Assembly (NCBI GenBank): GCA_030698575.1
Contig: JAUYMQ010000146.1
Location: forward strand, 1 to 13,012
From: Deltaproteobacteria bacterium
GTDB taxonomy: Bacteria; JAUYMQ01
DNA: 13,012 nucleotides
Direction of reading: 5' to 3'
Under the pieces are notes generated by a model. The model did not search any database, was not told the origin of the DNA, and saw only the letters and a program-made list of their open reading frames with translations. Made by a program: the position numbers and the translations under genes. Below are positions 1 to 11,113 of this stretch, piece after piece; position 1 is the first letter of the stretch, and the number at the start of each line of letters is the position of its first letter.

Positions 1-669
1 GTCCCGGGTCGAGAAGCCCCCCGTCGCCATCGTCGTGAACGCATGACAGACGGCCTCAAACCAGTCGAGCCCGGCGAACCGTAGCAGCAGGGTCTCCAGA
101 GTCGTCAATCCGACATAGATGTACCAGAGCCGGCGCGCCGTCGCGGCCACGCGGGGCCGTACCTTGTCGGACATGGGCCCGGAGATCTCCGCCCTGAAGA
201 GCTGCATGCCGCCGATCCCCAGCAGCGGGAGGATCGCGATGCTGAAGACGATGATCCCCATCCCTCCCAGCCACTGGGTGAAGGCCCGCCAGAAGAGCAG
301 CGTGCGCGGCTCCGCTTCGATGTGCGTCAGAACGGTGGAGCCCGTCGTCGTGAAGCCCGATGCTGCTTCGAAGAAGGCGTCGACGGGGCCGAGGGATCCG
401 GCCAGCACGTAGGGGAGCGCGCCGAAGATCGAGCAGAGCAGCCAGGCGCACCCGACGACGAAGAACCCGTCGCGCGGGCGGATCTGGTTGTCTTCGGGTT
501 GCATCGAGAAGGCGAGGATCATGCCGGCGAGAAGCGTGAAGCACGCGGCGGCCACGTAGGGGCCCGCGGTCTCGCCGAAGACGACCGCCACCCCCACCGG
601 AAGGAGCTGGAAGATTCCGACGAGGATCAGCAACCCGCCCAGCAGGCGCAGGTCGAGCTTCATGTTCAT
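1..669 (-). CDS. trkH: TrkH family K+ uptake channel subunit, N-terminal part (cut by window edge)
   Basis: This is the membrane channel subunit of a Trk/Ktr-type potassium uptake system, a superfamily with four pseudo-repeats each carrying a pore loop. I translated the minus strand from the ATG at 669 and obtained 223 open codons running off the window start. Visible features are a first hydrophobic helix (about residues 8-31), further helices at about 36-55 and 68-90, and the first selectivity-filter loop ASGFTTTGST (103-112). After these come the conserved segment TQWLGGMGIIVFSIAILPL (131-149) and a second filter-like loop, FTTMATGGFST (211-221). Roughly the last half of the usual ~480 residues lies outside the window. 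It starts 9 bases after the trkA stop, so the two are almost certainly cotranscribed. The start could instead be the ATG at 663 (MKLDLRLL); no strong Shine-Dalgarno sequence decides between them. Confidence 0.95.
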   Translation of the reverse strand, partial: MNMKLDLRLLGGLLILVGIFQLLPVGVAVVFGETAGPYVAAACFTLLAGMILAFSMQPEDNQIRPRDGFFVVGCAWLLCSIFGALPYVLAGSLGPVDAFFEAASGFTTTGSTVLTHIEAEPRTLLFWRAFTQWLGGMGIIVFSIAILPLLGIGGMQLFRAEISGPMSDKVRPRVAATARRLWYIYVGLTTLETLLLRFAGLDWFEAVCHAFTTMATGGFSTRD

Positions 670-678
670 GGGCGCAGC

Positions 679-2028
679 TCAGGGGGAGAGATAGGCGTCC
701 AGGCGGGGGGCGTTCTCCGTCGTCGTGATCAGAACGACCTGGTCGCCCGTCTGAATGGTTTCCTCACCGCGGGGAATCATCAACGCGTCGCCACGGCGAA
801 TTGCCGCGACGATCACCCCGCGCGGAAGGCCGATCTTTGCCAGATTGCCCGACGTGAGCCGGCTCCCTTCCACGGCCTCGGCCTCCAGGATCTCGACTTT
901 GTCCTCGAGCAGCGCCGCGACCGAGCGAACAATGCCGCGGCGGATGTGCTGCAGGGTGAGCCCGACCGCCAGGAGCCGCGGACTGATGACCGCGTCGATG
1001 CCGAGCTCGCCGATGAGGACCGCCAGGGCCGGGTTGTCGACCAGCGCGAAAGCGCGTCGCGCGCCGAGCCGCTTCGCGAGCAGCCCGGAGACGAGGTTCT
1101 CCTCGTGATCGGGCGTCAGCGCCACGAAGGTGGCCACGCGCTCGATCTCCTCCTGCTCGAGTAGCGCCTGGTCCGTCACCCGCCCGTGTATCACCAGCGC
1201 CCGGTCCAGCGTCTCCGCCGCCAGGCGCGCAAGCTCGGCGTTCTCCTCAATGAGGATCAGCTTCGAATCCACGTTCTCGAGTCGCCGCGCCACCTCCAGC
1301 CCGATTCGCCCCGCACCTGCCACCATGATGTGCTGCTTCTTGTCCGGAAGAGCGCCGACCAGCGCCAGAACGCTGTCCAGCTCTTCGCGGGCGATGGCGA
1401 AGTACACCAGATCGCCCACGCGGATCTCTTCCTGCCCGTGGGGAACGATCCACTCGGTGCCGCGATTGATGGCCGTGACCAGCGTCGGCGTGTCCGGGAA
1501 CATGAGCTTGATATGGGAAAGGAGAAGTCCCGCGAAATCGGAACTGGGGAGGATCCGGAACCCCGCCACAAGAAGGCGCCCATCCATGAAGGTCACGACG
1601 TCGAGGGCGCCCGGCACGTCCAGCAACGAAAGAATGCGATCGACGGCCGCCGCGGCCGGGTTCACGCAGAAATGCTTCCCGGGATAGGCCTCCGTCATCC
1701 GCGCGAAGCTCTCGGCATGTTCCTGCTCCCGCACCCGCACCACGACCCGGGGGACGTTGAAGACCGCCGTTCCGAGCATGCCCACGACCATGTTGTACTC
1801 ATCCGAGTCAGTCGTGGCCATGAGCAGATCGGCCTTCTCCACGCCGGCCCGCCTCAGAACGGAGGCGAGGGCGCCGTTCCCTTCGATGATCTGCGCGTCC
1901 AGCGTGTCGCTCATGTCGCGCGCGGTCGCCGAATTGCGCTCGACCACAGAGACATCGTGGCCGTCGCTCGCGAGCTTGCCGGCCAGAGTGGATCCGACCA
2001 GCCCGCCGCCCACGATGATGATGTTCAT
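679..2028 (-). CDS. trkA: Trk system potassium uptake regulatory protein TrkA
   Basis: TrkA is the cytoplasmic NAD(H)/nucleotide-binding subunit that gates TrkH. The 449-residue product has the usual length (E. coli TrkA is about 458) and a tandem layout: RCK_N (1-~120), RCK_C (~145-225), second RCK_N (~232-350), second RCK_C (~370-445). The glycine-rich nucleotide-binding turns GGGLVG (7-12) and GAGRIG (238-243) are both intact, and each is followed by an acidic residue at the end of beta-2 (VVERN and LIEEN). I chose the ATG at 2028 because MNIIIVGGGLVG is the classical TrkA N-terminus. A start 17 codons upstream is open, but it would translate a strong hairpin and add a proline/glycine-rich, non-conserved leader. 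An AGGGAG sequence sits 11 bases before the ATG. trkH follows after 9 bases, which supports a trkAH operon. Confidence 0.96.
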   Translation of the reverse strand: MNIIIVGGGLVGSTLAGKLASDGHDVSVVERNSATARDMSDTLDAQIIEGNGALASVLRRAGVEKADLLMATTDSDEYNMVVGMLGTAVFNVPRVVVRVREQEHAESFARMTEAYPGKHFCVNPAAAAVDRILSLLDVPGALDVVTFMDGRLLVAGFRILPSSDFAGLLLSHIKLMFPDTPTLVTAINRGTEWIVPHGQEEIRVGDLVYFAIAREELDSVLALVGALPDKKQHIMVAGAGRIGLEVARRLENVDSKLILIEENAELARLAAETLDRALVIHGRVTDQALLEQEEIERVATFVALTPDHEENLVSGLLAKRLGARRAFALVDNPALAVLIGELGIDAVISPRLLAVGLTLQHIRRGIVRSVAALLEDKVEILEAEAVEGSRLTSGNLAKIGLPRGVIVAAIRRGDALMIPRGEETIQTGDQVVLITTTENAPRLDAYLSP

Positions 2029-2039
2029 CTTCAAAGGAA

Positions 2040-2076
2040 CTCCCTGGCCCCCCGCGTCCGGGTTCGCCGGGGGCCA
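2040..2076 (-). promoter_or_regulatory. Hairpin and Shine-Dalgarno-like site in the trkA leader
   Basis: In the 106-base gap before trkA, TGGCCCCC (2045-2052) and GGGGGCCA (2069-2076) are exact inverted repeats. Three more pairs form inside after a single mismatch (2054-2056 with 2065-2067), leaving an 8-base loop. In the trkA mRNA the stem ends at the A of the AGGGAG ribosome-binding-like site (2040-2045). No T-run follows it, so it is not a normal intrinsic terminator. It may influence translation or protect the 5' end of a processed trkAH transcript; that role is inference. Confidence 0.4.
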
Positions 2077-2134
2077 CATAGTGCCATCGGCGGGGGGCGG
2101 AAGAAAAGCAAGAAGTGTCTGCCGCTCCGGTTAG

Positions 2135-5100
2135 CTATCGCCCGGAGAGCCCCGCCCCGCCGCGAAGGGCCGTGTAGAGCCGCTCCGGCTCCGGAAGCGG
2201 CGGCCACGCCATGACCGCGAGCGCGTCGTCGACGTATTCGGGGCGGCGCATGCCGGTGAGAACGCAGGCGACGCCTCCGGTGCTGGCGAGAGCCCAGATC
2301 GCCTTCCGCGAAAGCGTTTCGGTTCGGCGCTCGGGGGGGATGAGCGGATCGATCGCCTCTTCCACCGCGCGCGCGGCATCGCGGGATCGCGTGGCGGCGA
2401 CCTCTGTCGTGGCGGCCAGAAGCGCTTCGAGCGACGGGAGGTAGCGCTCGCGCCAGCCGCGCCAGGTCTCCCCGGCGGCGCCCTCCAAGCCCTGATCGAG
2501 GACCATGATCAGCTGGCGAATCGTCGGAACGATGGCGTGCGCCTGGTACTGCTGCCACTGATCGAGTCCGCGGATCTGCGGAAGGATGCTTCGCATCTGA
2601 TCGGCCCAGCGGAAGAGTTGATCGGGCCGCGGGGCGTCCTTGCCCAGATCGATGGCCGGTGCGAGGGTCCGGCGAAACTCTTCCTCCAGCAGTCCTGTCG
2701 CGCGGCAGGCGGCCTCGAAGTCTGGAGCACGCTCCGGCGCGTCCTCGGTCGCGAACACGGCGGCGAGCCGCAACATGCTCTCGGGGCCCATCGCGTTCAG
2801 CGGGCGGTTCACAAGAACGCCGAGCCCGGCATCCGCCGCCGCCTCGAGCACCGTCCGCTGCCCGTCCTCACCCTCCTTGCGCAACAGCACGGGGTTCGAC
2901 TCGAGGAGATTCATGGGAAGCTGCACGATGCGGCAGTGGTGATCCTCTCCACCCGCTCTTCGGGCCGCATCGAGAATGCGCCCGAGGGAAACGCTTTCGA
3001 TCTCCCCCGCGGGGCCGGCCAGCGTGTTCGACGACACGCCGTACCATCGGATTCTCCCCGCCTTCACCTCATCCTCGAGCGCCGCGAAGGCGGCCTCGAT
3101 GCGGCGGTAGAAGGCTTCGCGCACGTCCTCCGGCAACCCGCGGAACTCCTTCTTCGCATCGGAAAGGAAGTACTCCGGGTTGTGAAGAAGACAAACGTCG
3201 AGGGTTTCGATCCCCAGCCGCCCCAGCGAGCGAGTGAGTTGATCGCGAATGAACTCGGGATGAATGCAATGCCAGACACCGTCGGCGTACTTGACCATTT
3301 CGGGGTAGGGTCGCCCTTCCAGTTCCCGCGCCTCCGCCTGCGCGAGGTTGCCGCCCTGCACGTAGCCGATCTTCGAGACGACCACCACGCCCTCGCGGCG
3401 GACCGTTCCCCTGGCCGCAAGATCGGAGAGCACCTCGCCCACGAGCCGCTCGCTCGCACCGTCGGTGTAGTTCGTCGAAGTATCGATGAGGTTGCATCCC
3501 CGCCGGAGCGCATGCACGAGCGCCTCGCGGTGAGCCGGCGTGTCGTCGTCCACGCGGTAGCCGCCGAACCCCACGCGGCTCACCCGGAGCCCGGTGGTTC
3601 CGAAATCGGCATACCCCCGCAGATCGGCATCGGGGTACCGCGCGGCCGCCGCGCGTGTCACCTCCGGCACGGCGTGGCCCGCAAGGGCCTTGCCGACACG
3701 AACCGCCGCGCCCTTCCGCCCTGCTTCCGCCGATCCGGCAAGCGCGGCGCTCACCGCGGCGGGCTCGGTCACGGGGGCCTCGCAGGCGAAGTTCCGGCAG
3801 ACGTAAAGCGCCGGACGCCCGCCCTGCAGCGTCTTTCCGCGAAGCAACGCCCGCGATGATTCTCCCGCGTCGAGATCCTTCCAGGCGGTGATGCGATTTG
3901 GCAGGTAGGGGCGCGCAGCTTCGGCGCGCAGCGCCTCCAGCGCGGCGTCGCCGGTTGCGCCGACGAAGGCCAGCTCGACGGGTCCATCGAGGAGCAGATC
4001 GACCACGGCGAGGCTCGCGCAGAAGGCGCGGGGAAAGCGCCCGATCAGTTTTCCGTGAGCCGCCAGCGCCCGCTCTGCCGACGCGCGAAGCTCCGGCCGA
4101 TCGAAGTGAAAGGAGAGTCGCGCCAGCGCCGCGGCGGCCGCCGCGTTCGGCGAGGGAGTTGCGCCGTCCATCGCCTCACGCCGGCGGAGGATGAGTTTCT
4201 CGTGGTGGACGCCGGTCGCGAAGAAGCCCCCCGACTCGGGATCCTCGAACTCGGCCAGCACTCGCCCCGCGAGATCCTCCGCCGCGTCCAGATAGCGATC
4301 GCCGCCGCCCGCCTCGTAGAGATCAATGAGCGCGCCCGTGAGGTAGGCATAGTCTTCGAGCACGCCGTCGAGGTGCGCCTTGCCTTCCCGACAGGTCCTC
4401 AGCAGCCGTCCCTCCGGCCCGAGGAGCGTCCCGAGGATGAAGTCGGCGGCGCGTCGCGCCCCCTCGAGGTAGCGGGGCTCGCCCAGCACCCAGGCGCCGA
4501 AGGCCATGGCGCCGATCATGAGTCCGTTCCAGGCGGTGAGGATCTTGTCGTCGAGCCCGGGCGCCACGCGCGCGGCCCGGGCCCGGTAGAGTTTTTCACG
4601 CGCGGCCGCGATTGATGCCTCGAGTTCGGCCAGCGGAATGCCGAGCGTTCGCGCGACTTCCTCGAGCGGGAGAGGCGCGTTCGGGATGCTCTTCCCCTCC
4701 CAGTTCCCTGCCGGCGTGATGTCGAACCAGGCGCAAAGCCGGCGTCCCTCCTCGGGGCCCAGCGCGGCCTCGACCTCGGCCGGCGTCCAGACGAAGAACT
4801 TCCCCTCCTCGCCCTCCGAGTCCGCGTCGGTGCTCGAGTAGAAGCCCCCCTCGGGCGATGTCATCTCGCGCAGGACATAGTCGAACACGTCGGTGGCCAC
4901 GCGGCGGAAGAGCGCATCGCCCGTCGCCTGCCACGCCTCCAGGTACACCCGGGCCAGCAGGGCGTTGTCGTAGAGCATCTTTTCGAAGTGGGGAACCAGC
5001 CACCGCTCGTCCGTCGCGTAGCGGGCGAAACCGCCGCCAACATGATCGTAAATCCCTCCCCGCGCCATCGCGTCGAGGGTCTTTGACACCATGCGGATCG

Positions 5101-5800
5101 CGTTTTCGTCCCCCGTGCGGCGGTGGTGGCGGAGCAGCAGCGAGAGCGAGGACGACGGCGGAAACTTGGGCGCGCCGCCAAACCCACCGTGCTCCGGATC
5201 AAAGGTCTGTGCGAGCTGCGCCGCGGCCTCCGATATTTCGTTCGCGCCGACCGGAAGCGGCGGCGCGGCGCGGGTCTGCGCGGCGAGATTGGCGGTCAGT
5301 TCGGCGGCCTGCTTGCGCAGGCGCTCCGGCCGGCTCCGCCACAGCTCGGCAATGCGGGTGAGAAGCGTGGGAAAGCCCGGGCGGCCATGGGCGTCGACGG
5401 GCGGGAAGTAGGTGCCGGCGAAGAACGGCTCCTGTTCGGGCGTGAGAAAGACGGTCATCGGCCAGCCGCCCTGCCCCGAGTTCATGGCCTGGGTGGCCGC
5501 CATGTAGATGTCATCGAGATCGGGCCGCTCCTCGCGGTCGACCTTCACGCAGACGAAGTGTTCGTTCATGAGCGCGGCGATGCGCTCGTCCTCGAAGCAC
5601 TCGCGCTCCATCACATGGCACCAGTGACAGGCGCTGTACCCGATCGAAAGAAGGATCGGCCGCTTCTCCTCGGCGGACCGCCGCAGGGCATCCTCGCCCC
5701 AGGGATACCAGTCCACCGGGTTGTGGGCGTGCTGAAGCAGGTAGGGGCTCGTTTCGTGGATGAGCCGGTTGGGCTTTCGTCCTGAAGTCTTTTCGCTCAT
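2135..5800 (-). CDS. Fusion: DUF255/SSP411 (YyaL) thioredoxin-like protein joined to aldo/keto reductase
   Basis: One open frame of 1221 residues encodes two families. Residues ~10-690 are a full-length DUF255/SSP411 (YyaL, SPATA20) protein. It starts with a thioredoxin-like domain (~10-172) containing SACHWCHVM with CHWC at 58-61, continues with an (alpha/alpha)-barrel like six-hairpin glycosidases or epimerases ([17 protein letters not shown] at 416-432), and ends with the family's terminal [15 protein letters not shown] (667-680). A ~40-residue Ala/Gly-rich linker follows. Residues ~731-1221 are an NAD(P)H-dependent aldo/keto reductase whose tetrad is intact: Asp773, Tyr778 ([11 protein letters not shown]), Lys810 (VVSKIGY) and His873 (LLHNPEYF), with [14 protein letters not shown] near the C-terminus. 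I chose the ATG at 5800 because AAAGG precedes it by 4 bases and the longer upstream frame overlaps the dehydratase gene. It lies 34 bases behind the dehydratase. The substrate is unknown; YyaL-family biochemistry is poorly defined. Confidence 0.9.
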
Positions 5801-5834: not shown

Positions 5835-6170
5835 TCAAGCGGAGCCGAAAGCCTCGTCGCATTTTGCGGCCAGGATGAAATCGCTCTCTGTAAGGCCGTC
5901 GATCTTGTGCGTCCAGATGTCGACGCGCACCTTTCCCCAGGTGAGGACGATGTCGGGGTGGTGCCCCTGCTGCTCCGCAATGCCGCCGATCTTGTTCACG
6001 TAGTCCAGCGCGGTGACGAAATCCTTGAAGCTGTAAGCGCGTGTGATGTGATGCCCCTTGACCGCCTCCCAGCCCTCCACCTCGGCCAGCAGATTGGTGA
6101 TCGCCTTCCCTTCGAGCGGAGGAACGCCTCCCTTGCAGGGAACGCACTCTTTCTTCGCAAGCCCGGACAT
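5835..6170 (-). CDS. 4a-hydroxytetrahydrobiopterin dehydratase (pterin-4a-carbinolamine dehydratase, PCD/PhhB-like)
   Basis: This family dehydrates 4a-hydroxytetrahydropterin, normally to recycle the pterin cofactor used by aromatic amino-acid hydroxylases. The 111-residue protein has the standard length. It shows the conserved Cys-x-x-Cys-Lys N-terminus followed by PPL (C9, C12), GHHPDI (69-74) with the active-site histidine pair, the third histidine in [13 protein letters not shown] (86-98, H88), and a typical LAAKCD end. The start at 6170 is fixed by a perfect AAGGAGG (6176-6182) five bases upstream. It is the first gene of the minus-strand block, with the fusion gene 34 bases downstream. 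No phenylalanine hydroxylase is visible within the window, so it may serve an unlinked hydroxylase or another pterin role; relatives without a hydroxylase are known. Its partner cannot be deduced here. Confidence 0.95.
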
Positions 6171-6546: not shown

Positions 6547-7472
<926 letters not shown>

Positions 7473-7476
<4 letters not shown>

Positions 7477-8240
7477 ACGGCTTCCTGGCGGTGTACCGGC
7501 GCGAACTGGCTTCCTACTTCCAGTCGGCGATCTTCTACGTCGTGGCCTTCGTGTTCCTGGGAATCTTCGGCTATCTCTTCTTCGCCTCGGTGCTGGCCTA
7601 CGGCTACTTCTCCTTCCAGGCGCAGGATCCCATGATGGCCTCACAGCTGAACGGGACCGAGATGGTCCTGACCCCGCTCTTCCACGACACGAGCGTCGTG
7701 ATGCTGCTAGTGATGCCACTTCTCACCATGCGCGCCTTCGCCGAGGAACGGAAGACCGGCACGCTGGAGCTCCTGTTCACCTATCCTCTTCGCGATCTCG
7801 AGACCCTTCTCGGAAAGCTGGCGGCCGTCCTCACCGTCTTTGGAATCGTGCTCGCGGGAACCCTCCCCTGCGTAGCGTTTCTTTCCAGCCTCACGCCGAT
7901 CGATCCGGGCGTCATCGCCTCGAGCTACACGGGGCTCTTCCTCCTCGGAAGCGCGTTCCTCTGCCTGGGCATTTTCGTCTCGTCGCTCACCGAGAACCAG
8001 ATCGTCGCAGCCGTCGTCTCCTTCGGCGCGCTGCTCGCCTTCTGGCTCATCGGGGTCGTCGAGCAATTCTCCGGCGGCGGCGGAGGCGGACCGCTCTCAT
8101 ACCTTTCAATCCTGGAGCACTTCGACGCCTTCACGCGCGGTGTTGTCGACACGCGCGACGTGGCCTTCTACCTGCTCTTCTGCGCATTCTTCCTCTTCGG
8201 CACGCTGCGCGTGCTCGAATCGATGCGCTGGCGGGGTTAA
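7473..8240 (+). CDS. ABC-2 type permease subunit (GldF-like)
   Basis: This is the membrane subunit of the ABC system. It has 255 residues with about six hydrophobic helices near 20-40, 70-86, 115-137, 152-170, 176-196 and 230-247. RAFAEERKTGTLELLFTYPL (87-106) is the characteristic cytoplasmic coupling segment of ABC-2 permeases next to GldA-like ATPases. A long loop follows the first helix, and a run of six glycines (201-206) precedes the last part. The start at 7473 is chosen because GGGAGG (7463-7468) lies four bases upstream and the ATGA overlap with the ATPase gene suggests translational coupling. The longer upstream frame adds an arginine-rich, non-hydrophobic leader and is unlikely. 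The substrate is not known; families of this type are annotated for gliding motility in Bacteroidetes but occur widely in non-gliding bacteria. Confidence 0.94.
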
Positions 8241-8243
8241 GCG

Positions 8244-9677
8244 ATGCCCTTCGGCCGATCTCGCCGCGTCCGGACCGGATCTCAGACCGCGCTGGCCATG
8301 CTGGCCTTCGCGACCGTGCTCGTTTTCGCCGGCCTCTTCGTGGCCCGCTTTCCCGAACGCATCGATCTGACGGACGTGGGCGCGCAGAGCCTCTCGGAAG
8401 AGACGCGGAAGGTGCTCGCCTCCCTCGAGACCGACGTTCACGCCATCGCCTTCCCGTCGCGGGAGGGAGGCGGGCCGGAAGCCCTGCGCGATCTTCTCGA
8501 GAACTGCCGCGTGGCCTCACGGCGCTTCACCTACGAGATGGTCGATGCCGAGCGGAACCTCTCGCTAGCGAAGCAGTACGAGGTCCGGAGCCTCGACACG
8601 ACCGTGCTCGTTGCCGGGGGAAAGAGCCACAACGTGACCGAAGCCACCGAGCAGGCGCTCACAAACGGCCTGCGGGAGCTGCTTCTCGACCGGGAGCGCA
8701 AGGTCTACTTCACCGCGGGTCACGGCGAGCATCCGCTGGAAGGAACCACCAATGAAGCCTACAGCGGGGTTCGGGGCGACATCCAGGGCGCCAACTTCCC
8801 CGTGGAGCCGTTGACGCTCATCACTGCCGAGAAGATCCCGGACGACGCGGCGGCGATCATCATCGGCGGACCCAGGAAGCCCTTCATGGAGCCGGAGATC
8901 GAGCTACTGCGCGCGTACGTGCTCGGCGGCGGCGCGCTCATCGTTCTGCTCGATCCGGAGAACGACGCGGGGCTCCGGGAGCTGCTGAAGGAATGGGGTG
9001 TGGGACTCGACGACGATCTCATCGTGGACAAGTTTTCGCGGATGTTCGGTGGCGACTACACCACGCCGGTCGTGATGGAGTACAACGCCGACAGCTTCAT
9101 GGCGGGCTTCAACGTCGCAACCTTCTTTCCTGAGGCCCGATCGATCGAGCCCCTGTCGCCCGCGCCCCCGGGAATTACCGTCACGCGCCTCGCCTCGACG
9201 TCCCAGGCTGCGTGGGGCGAAAGAGGAACGTCGGAGATCAAGGAGGGCGTGGTCGAGTTCCAGGCCGAAACCGACATCCCGGGCCCCGTTCCGGTGGCGG
9301 TTCTGTCGGAGCTGCCGCCTCGCGATGTGCCCGCGCAGGTCCCGGCGGAGGGATCGTCTCAGGAGAACGAGGGCGATGGGAACGGTGAAGCGGAAGGAGC
9401 GGCGCGCGGAAGGGTGATCGTCTTCGGCGACAGCGACTTCATCGCCGACGCCTATCTCGGCCTCTCGGGCAACGCCGACTTCTTCCTGAACACGCTGGAG
9501 TACCTCGCGCGAGAGGCGAACCCCGTTCTCATCGAGCGCCGCCAGCGCGAGGGCGCGCCGCTCTTCATGACCGCCGGGCAGGGCCAGGCCCTGACTCTGG
9601 TGAGCTTCGCGCTCAGCCCGGGGCTGGTTCTGCTGGGCGGCCTGATGGTGTGGCGTAGCCGGCGGAAGAATCGATGA
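8244..9677 (+). CDS. GldG-like ABC transporter auxiliary protein
   Basis: This is a membrane-anchored partner of the ABC core, in the family of GldG-type 'ABC transport system auxiliary' proteins. The 477 residues start with a basic stretch and one helix (~15-35), followed by the family's IDLTDVGAQSLSEETRKVL segment (40-58). The large extracytoplasmic part includes FTAGHGEHPL (156-165), IIIGGPRKPF (205-214) and FGDSDFIADAYL (394-405) with the conserved FFLNTLEYL (413-421). A second helix (~449-470) lies near the C-terminus, before a basic tail (RSRRKNR). Residues ~362-388 are an acidic, Gly/Glu-rich insert that looks like a flexible loop. The gene starts 3 bases after the permease stop and overlaps the next gene by ATGA. 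Its biochemical role is unknown; the fold is often compared with ThuA/class I amidotransferase-like domains. Confidence 0.9.
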   Translation: MPFGRSRRVRTGSQTALAMLAFATVLVFAGLFVARFPERIDLTDVGAQSLSEETRKVLASLETDVHAIAFPSREGGGPEALRDLLENCRVASRRFTYEMVDAERNLSLAKQYEVRSLDTTVLVAGGKSHNVTEATEQALTNGLRELLLDRERKVYFTAGHGEHPLEGTTNEAYSGVRGDIQGANFPVEPLTLITAEKIPDDAAAIIIGGPRKPFMEPEIELLRAYVLGGGALIVLLDPENDAGLRELLKEWGVGLDDDLIVDKFSRMFGGDYTTPVVMEYNADSFMAGFNVATFFPEARSIEPLSPAPPGITVTRLASTSQAAWGERGTSEIKEGVVEFQAETDIPGPVPVAVLSELPPRDVPAQVPAEGSSQENEGDGNGEAEGAARGRVIVFGDSDFIADAYLGLSGNADFFLNTLEYLAREANPVLIERRQREGAPLFMTAGQGQALTLVSFALSPGLVLLGGLMVWRSRRKNR

Positions 9678-11113
9678 GCCGCCGCGGCGCTCTGGCCTAC
9701 CTGATTCTCGCCCTCCTCCTGGGGGGCGCGTACCTGCTCTCGACACGCAATCAGGAACAGAACGCCGAGCAAGCGGCTCACGCCAGGCGGGTCTTCGACA
9801 TCGAAAAGGGCTCCGTGAGCGGGCTCGCGCTGCGCCGCGCGGGCCACCCTGAAATCCGCATCGAGCGGGCCGCCGGGGGCGCGCCGGAAGCCGGGGGCAA
9901 TCTGGCCGGAGCAGCCGCGTGGCGCATCGTCGCGCCGATGCAGGTGGCGGCCGATCCCGAAGCGGTCGGCGTGGTCATCGACGCGGCCCTCGCCGCCGAA
10001 AAGCTCCGAACCCTCGAGGGCGGCGATCTCGATCCCTCGGAGTACGGCCTCGAGAAGCCCTCTCTCCGCCTTTCGCTCCTGGCCCGCGACGCCTCGCACG
10101 CCATGGAGTTCGGGGGCGAGAACATCACCGGCGACGCCCGCTACGCCAGGGTTCCGGGCGCCCCCGGCATCTTCCTGGTTGCGGCAGCGACCTACAACCA
10201 GGCGGACCTGGGGCTGGATGGACTGCGCGACCGGCGCCTCATGCCACTGGATCGATCGGCCATCGAGCGCATCAGCGTCCAGTGGAACGACGCCCGGGTG
10301 ATCCTCCATCGAGAGAACGGGGAATGGCGGTTCGCGAAGCGAGCCCGCCCCGTGAGCGATACCGCGGTGGATGGTCTCATCGCGACGGTGAGCGAGACGA
10401 ACGTCGATCGATTCGTGACCGACGAGGCGGTGGAGCCGGACGACTACCGGCTCGGAAAGCCCGACGCGATAGTGACCTTCGAGGGCGCGGGGAAATCGTG
10501 GGAGGCGCGATTCAAAGGCCCGCCCGGGGACGCGGAAGAGCCCGCCGTCCTCGCGGCGCGATCGACCGCTCCGGGCATCGTCGCGCTCCCCGCCACCTAC
10601 CTCGACCGCCTGCCGCGTTCGGCGGCAGCCCTCGAGGATCAGACCCTGCTTCGCGCCGACGCCGCCACGGTGTACGCGATCACCCTGCAGGCGGGCGAGA
10701 AGAAGGTGCGTTTCGAAAAGGAGGGTAATGCGTGGAAACAAATGGACGCGCCACCCGCTGACAGGGAACGCAAGACGCCGCCCGACGCCCCCGTGCTCCT
10801 GGCGCTTCTGGGCGAGCTGCGGCACGACGGCGCCCCCCCGCGCGGGAACGAGATCAACTTCGACGCCGAGCTGTCGCTCCTGCTCGAAGGAGAGAGCGGC
10901 GAGCCCGTTCTCGATCTCCGGGTTGGTCCCGCCAACGAGGAACACGGCGAGCACACCGGACGCCTGACAGACGCCGCCGGCGAGCGTGACATCCTGCTCA
11001 CGCCCTTTACCCTGGAGAATCTCCAGGACACGATTCGCGAACTGGCGCCCGGTCTCCTCGCGCCCCCCGCAATTGACAGCGTTCCCGAGCCGGCGGAAGC
11101 CGGCGCACCCTGA
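9674..11113 (+). CDS. DUF4340 domain protein, membrane-anchored
   Basis: This is an uncharacterised protein that regularly accompanies GldG-like genes. The 479 residues start with a single hydrophobic anchor (~6-23) after MSRRG, so the rest is probably outside the inner membrane. Repeated units are visible: [13 protein letters not shown] (123-135) and [13 protein letters not shown] (257-269) share the 'YxLxKP' pattern. Each is followed by a strand-rich stretch ending in a hydrophobic '[10 protein letters not shown]' or '[10 protein letters not shown]' segment and an [10 protein letters not shown]-type motif (184-193). This is the pattern of DUF4340. The C-terminus is Pro/Ala-rich. Its ATG overlaps the GldG-like stop codon (ATGA), which ties it to the ABC operon and points to action in the same complex. 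I see no catalytic motif. Confidence 0.87.

Follow-up and report, generated by a model that had tools for sequence, protein, structure and literature searches.

The window, by which we mean the whole 13,012-nucleotide stretch of DNA analyzed, carries at positions 2135–5800 of its minus strand a single uninterrupted frame of 1221 codons plus stop, in which a protein of the DUF255/SSP411 (YyaL) family is joined to an aldo/keto reductase (AKR). Translation confirmed the extent of the frame given in a preliminary description, which had named no strand. The features of the gene are:

2135..5800, minus strand: fused gene, DUF255/SSP411 (YyaL) followed by AKR; single open frame, with the in-frame fusion seen in 69 loci
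5285..5770, minus strand: thioredoxin-like N-terminal domain, PF03190, residues 11–172; matches to 3ira and 7tkv
5618..5629, minus strand: CHWC, residues 58–61, thioredoxin-type site; Cys58 and Cys61 invariant, and kept in free-standing DUF255 proteins
3887..5254, minus strand: DUF255 (alpha/alpha) barrel, approximately residues 183–638; structural matches to 2fv0, 5x32, and 4v1r, and conserved residues
3782..3799, minus strand: C-terminal CRNFAC motif, residues 668–673; Cys668 and Cys673 conserved in fused and separate DUF255 proteins
3617..3757, minus strand: junction, residues 682–728; defined by linker comparison and by a motif found at the N-termini of free-standing AKRs
2765..3616, minus strand: AKR (beta/alpha)8 barrel, first part, residues 729–1012; PF00248, catalytic tetrad, and WHC-[IL]-H at 843–847
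2342..2719, minus strand: helical insertion between AKR strands 7 and 8, approximately residues 1028–1153; from the AlphaFold2 model of the AKR half and alignment gaps
2159..2314, minus strand: C-terminal part of the AKR, strand 8 and the GMRxPxYVxDxL segment; structural alignment to AKRs up to approximately residue 1214

The matches to both Pfam families lie above their gathering cut-offs, with 254 bits against 27 for PF03190 (residues 11–172, E 7.5e-76) and 81.4 bits against 24 for PF00248 (residues 743–1001, E 7.7e-23). A Shine-Dalgarno-like AAAGG stands immediately 5′ of the ATG, and GC content at codon position 3 is high across both halves, as is the pattern for coding DNA, the exception being the linker, where position 1 exceeds position 3. 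The conserved block of the DUF255 barrel begins GGxxDHxGGGFxRYxxD, and the GMRxPxYVxDxL segment of the AKR occupies the usual position for binding of the cofactor phosphate. The upstream neighbor, 34 bases away (window 5835–6170), encodes a pterin-4a-carbinolamine dehydratase, and the trkA-trkH K+ uptake genes lie approximately 55 bases downstream (window 1–2079); these genes and the fused gene share one strand and possibly form an operon peculiar to the source genome. Positions 6547–11113 of the window hold an ABC transporter cluster (an ATPase, an ABC-2 permease, an ABC_transp_aux protein, and a DUF4340 protein) resembling gliding-type GldA/F/G sets. Elsewhere, the source genome encodes a second, free-standing DUF255 protein (47% identity), and no further full-length relative of the fused AKR was found in it.

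A genome scan using the AKR half alone as query returned 80 loci, in 69 of which the AKR is preceded, in one stop-free frame, by a DUF255 half. Relatives with a stop codon and a separate start at the linker were sought, and those of the AKR half proved to be overwhelmingly fused. Two loci initially scored as not fused (L035 and L057) have a frame break within the DUF255 half and an unbroken junction, and two more (L086 and L047) are truncated by contig ends. Fused genes occur in Methylomirabilota, Nitrospirota, Gemmatimonadota, Myxococcota, SZAS-1, and MAG_50, as well as in the source lineage, whose sampled relatives are all related to it at domain level only; four of the records are at chromosome level (FP929003.1, CP092081.1, CP070722.1, and OY282373.1), Nitrospira defluvii being among the organisms. 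Full-length matches across several phyla are ∼49–65% identical to the window protein, with both sites intact. In phylum-wide samples, matches spanning both halves were found in 36 of 148 Nitrospirota genomes and 20 of 95 Methylomirabilota genomes, and in a broad sample of 386 genomes only in the source genome and one other (G568). The fusion is present in dozens of species of the nitrite-oxidizing genus Nitrospira, and in N. defluvii the fused protein is the sole match, so it must do there whatever DUF255 does.

Although the source assembly comprises 653 contigs, the joining of two genes by an assembly or sequencing error, such as a missing base at the linker, can be set aside, since the same open in-frame junction recurs in 69 independently assembled loci, the four chromosome-level records among them. 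The fusion is thus natural, old, and conserved, and is spread over at least five lineages by inheritance or transfer. A literature search for DUF255 together with aldo-keto reductase found no paper, and the fusion was nowhere mentioned; the DUF255-AKR protein is a real, conserved architecture of known parts that is undescribed in the literature searched.

A tree built from 75 DUF255 sequences places all the fused ones in one clade with a support of 100, which indicates one fusion event. The second part of the junction corresponds to the N-terminal extension carried by free-standing members of this AKR subfamily: the motif AT-x-EGT-x-x-YA-x-R, present in most members and degenerate in the window protein, is found at the N-termini of the free-standing AKRs L085, L092, L105, and L106, implying that two whole genes were joined. 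Only four unfused sequences, all from Methylomirabilota, fall inside the fused clade, and in one of these (L128) the contig ends inside the gene. The other three (L125, L126, and L127) are DUF255-only proteins nested among fused ones; in L125 and L126 the protein ends in a stub of the junction (...GGKR). Each of the three is followed by the gene that comes after the AKR in L104, a fused relative; the L104 and L125 copies are 88% identical. These three exceptions are true later losses of the AKR, and a replacement AKR was sought in the three genomes and not found. The gene directly following the DUF255 or DUF255-AKR gene in these four Methylomirabilota genomes encodes a ferredoxin-like (4Fe-4S) protein of approximately 270 residues (L125:7382-8203 and L104:9155-9976, and likewise in L126 and L127). 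Three free-standing AKRs from acidobacteria, together with L107, group among the fused sequences in the AKR tree with varying support, and their genomes encode DUF255 elsewhere; judged from these sequences, separation of the AKR from the fusion, i.e. a change in the opposite direction, may also have occurred.

Residue conservation supports the proposal in the preliminary description that both halves are functional rather than decayed. In the alignment, Cys58, Cys61, Cys668, and Cys673 are invariant in all 46 rows that have the DUF255 half. The CHWC site is at the residues first proposed, and the C-terminal CxxxxC-type motif is present as described, except that it had been placed at 669–673, one residue late at its start. 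The AKR tetrad was correctly assigned as Asp773, Tyr778, Lys810, and His873, and is invariant in 54 of 54 rows, as are Trp843, His844, Cys845, and His847; Cys845 is equally invariant in the free-standing AKRs of the subfamily. The window protein also keeps the residues that are conserved in fused and separate DUF255 proteins, among them Asp252, Arg260, Tyr261, Asp264, Trp267, His271, Glu273, and Lys274. With these residues intact in both halves, a pseudogene is ruled out, and both halves look functional from their sequences. Fused and free members of the AKR subfamily share two near-invariant motifs, WHC-[IL]-H-P-x-F and LLHNPEY.

An AlphaFold2 model of residues 25–1221, built with 54 sequences, has a pLDDT of 87.7 and a pTM of 0.81. 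Because a pTM closer to the larger half’s share (∼0.55) would be expected if the halves had no defined arrangement, the model suggests that the two halves pack in a defined way. Residues 1–637 of the model match 7tkv (Z 44.1, 594 residues aligned, rmsd 2.8, 37% identity), and the barrel matches the GH88 unsaturated glucuronyl hydrolase 2fv0 (Z 28.5), D-mannose isomerase 5x32 (Z 28.2), and GH76 4v1r (Z 28.2), as well as GH88 1vd5 (Z ∼28), bearing out the earlier reading of DUF255 as a thioredoxin domain combined with an (alpha/alpha) barrel of the sugar epimerase and glycosidase type. Weak Pfam matches of fused relatives (nine members scanned), to GH88, GlcNAc 2-epimerase, and C5-epimerase, agree with this likeness. 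The AKR half of the full model matches known AKRs with Z ∼30; modeled alone (pLDDT 89.6, pTM 0.86), it has the same structural neighbors and aligns as a (beta/alpha)8 barrel to 7utf_B over 293 residues (Z 31.1). The insertion of approximately 125 residues between its strands 7 and 8 is modeled as mostly helical. Among Methylomirabilis-type, acidobacterial, and myxococcal members, several lack this insertion (e.g. L104, L103, L108, and L109), so it is dispensable for the fusion and presumably also for catalysis.

DUF255 matches are present in 176 of the 386 sampled genomes (∼45%), and most DUF255 genomes have no AKR of the fused subfamily. With fusions excluded, DUF255 was found in 12 of the 15 sampled genomes that encode a free AKR of this subfamily, compared with 162 of the 369 that lack the AKR (Fisher p ∼0.007, not corrected for phylogeny), a modest co-occurrence beyond the fusion itself. 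Adjacency of separate DUF255 and AKR genes in relatives, which the preliminary description had put forward as a check, was never seen where contigs were comparable, the two genes lying on different contigs wherever both positions are listed. No neighboring gene recurs across phyla around the fused gene, and the neighborhood gives no hint of a substrate. The view of the fusion as a ‘Rosetta stone’ clue is fair in itself, but the functional link it implies is weakened by the AKR losses, the unlinked separate genes, and the many AKR-less genomes with DUF255. Among the Methylomirabilota genomes (G294–G353), most of those with DUF255 as a separate gene also encode a shorter AKR paralog (∼370–430 residues, 34–42% identical over the first 300 residues).

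A coevolution study describes SSP411/YyaL as unstudied in bacteria and merely as a proposed redox protein in eukaryotes, and reports DUF255 and SelO (PF02696) as phyletic alternatives that are negatively coupled (PMC6822775). This alternation was not reproduced in our sample, where SelO was counted in 15 of the 176 DUF255-bearing genomes and in 15 of the other 210, and the source genome carries both. SelO is present in two (G033 and G639) of the three sampled genomes with AKR and without DUF255, too few to judge.

We tentatively favor, at somewhat less than even probability, a two-active-site enzyme in which the barrel and the AKR share a single carbonyl or sugar-like substrate, the AKR serving as an auxiliary and the thioredoxin site having a regulatory or redox-supporting role. 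The DUF255 barrel, with the fold of N-acylglucosamine 2-epimerase, mannose isomerase, and glucuronyl hydrolase, would bind an aldose-like or carbonyl compound and convert it. With NAD(P)H as cofactor, the AKR domain would reduce (or oxidize) the linked carbonyl, and the CHWC site and C-terminal cysteines would maintain the barrel in its reduced form or act on it as a redox switch. Fusion may then bring co-expression, a fixed 1:1 ratio, and proximity. Catalysis by the barrel is predicted from its fold likeness. The AKR resembles bacterial and plant AKRs acting on sugars and carbonyls, in keeping with such an enzyme, although similarity of AKR fold does not indicate the substrate. A few members have dropped the AKR and kept DUF255, and for this reason the AKR probably performs an auxiliary step, e.g. 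removal of a reactive carbonyl product, outside DUF255’s own chemistry. Deletion of the AKR in three Methylomirabilota genomes without replacement, the unlinked separate genes, and the lack of a shared neighborhood argue against coupling of the two sites.

The same AKR losses, together with the unlinked partner genes and the modest co-occurrence, are consistent with a rather unlikely alternative in which neighboring genes were joined by chance and the fusion was kept since its products work independently. Its persistence across several phyla and dozens of Nitrospira species, with both sites intact at the identities given above, and the defined packing suggested by the pTM argue for more than this. 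We also consider it improbable that the fusion serves chiefly as a redox relay or switch, in which the thioredoxin-like site of DUF255 would control the AKR, or stay reduced near it, the AKR being a stress-defense carbonyl reductase and the barrel only binding a ligand. Conservation of CHWC and CxxxxC throughout, the invariant Cys845 in WHC-[IL]-H of the AKR subfamily, and the location of the Leptospirillum yyaL gene near the thioredoxin reductase gene trxB (PMC7084401) point toward such a role. However, Cys845 is no feature of the fusion, being invariant in free-standing AKRs too, and the conserved charged pocket motif of the barrel argues for more than binding. Moreover, AKRs transfer hydride, not thiol electrons.

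A stronger form of the two-active-site proposal, which we regard as doubtful, is that the fusion reveals the pathway of SSP411/YyaL, the AKR subfamily directly handling an aldose or carbonyl intermediate of DUF255, possibly channeled between facing sites. The DUF255 family occurs in animals as well as bacteria, and if such handling were true, its function would become testable for a family found in ∼45% of the sampled bacterial genomes and in animals. A natural fusion to a mechanistically understood enzyme class provides a concrete handle on this neglected family, and the presence of fused, separate, and secondarily reduced forms within one phylum permits their comparison.

The AKR half belongs to the AKR superfamily by its PF00248 score, Asp-Tyr-Lys-His tetrad, and (beta/alpha)8 barrel. 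Its nearest solved relatives are 7utf, AKR11C1 (1ynp), YghZ/AKR14A1, and the L-galactose dehydrogenases, with which it shares the fold, the tetrad, and the C-terminal cofactor segment, but at only ∼17–27% identity. In contrast to these AKRs, it has the N-terminal extension, the WHC-[IL]-H motif, the helical insertion before strand 8, and the fusion to DUF255. Its subfamily matched no described AKR enzyme family above cut-off, and no NCBIfam equivalog scored above its cut-off (YdjG methylglyoxal reductase, 33.7 bits versus 550). A Kv-beta-like K+ channel regulator (AKR6), a reading prompted by the adjoining trkA/trkH genes and a weak match to TIGR01293, was rejected: TIGR01293 scores 25.7 bits against a cut-off of 365.4, and neither the trk genes nor any other neighbor was found to recur in the various fused lineages.

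The barrels of N-acylglucosamine 2-epimerase, mannose isomerase, and GH88 share their fold with the DUF255 barrel (Z ∼28) at 11–16% identity, the likeness being one of fold; in contrast to these barrels, that of DUF255 is preceded by a thioredoxin domain. For the N-terminal 690 residues the reference is the DUF255/Thioredox_DsbH/SSP411 family (YyaL, SPATA20; PF03190), represented by Brucella Bab1_2064 (7tkv), which likewise has the thioredoxin domain, the (alpha/alpha) barrel, and the C-terminal CxxxxC. The PF03190 score, the CxxC site, the full-length fold, and the C-terminal cysteine pair place the fused protein in this family. Termination after the DUF255 region is the usual architecture of the family, not a defining domain feature; whereas 7tkv and most members stop after the CxxxxC region, the fused protein continues with a whole AKR, which marks out the fused clade within the family.
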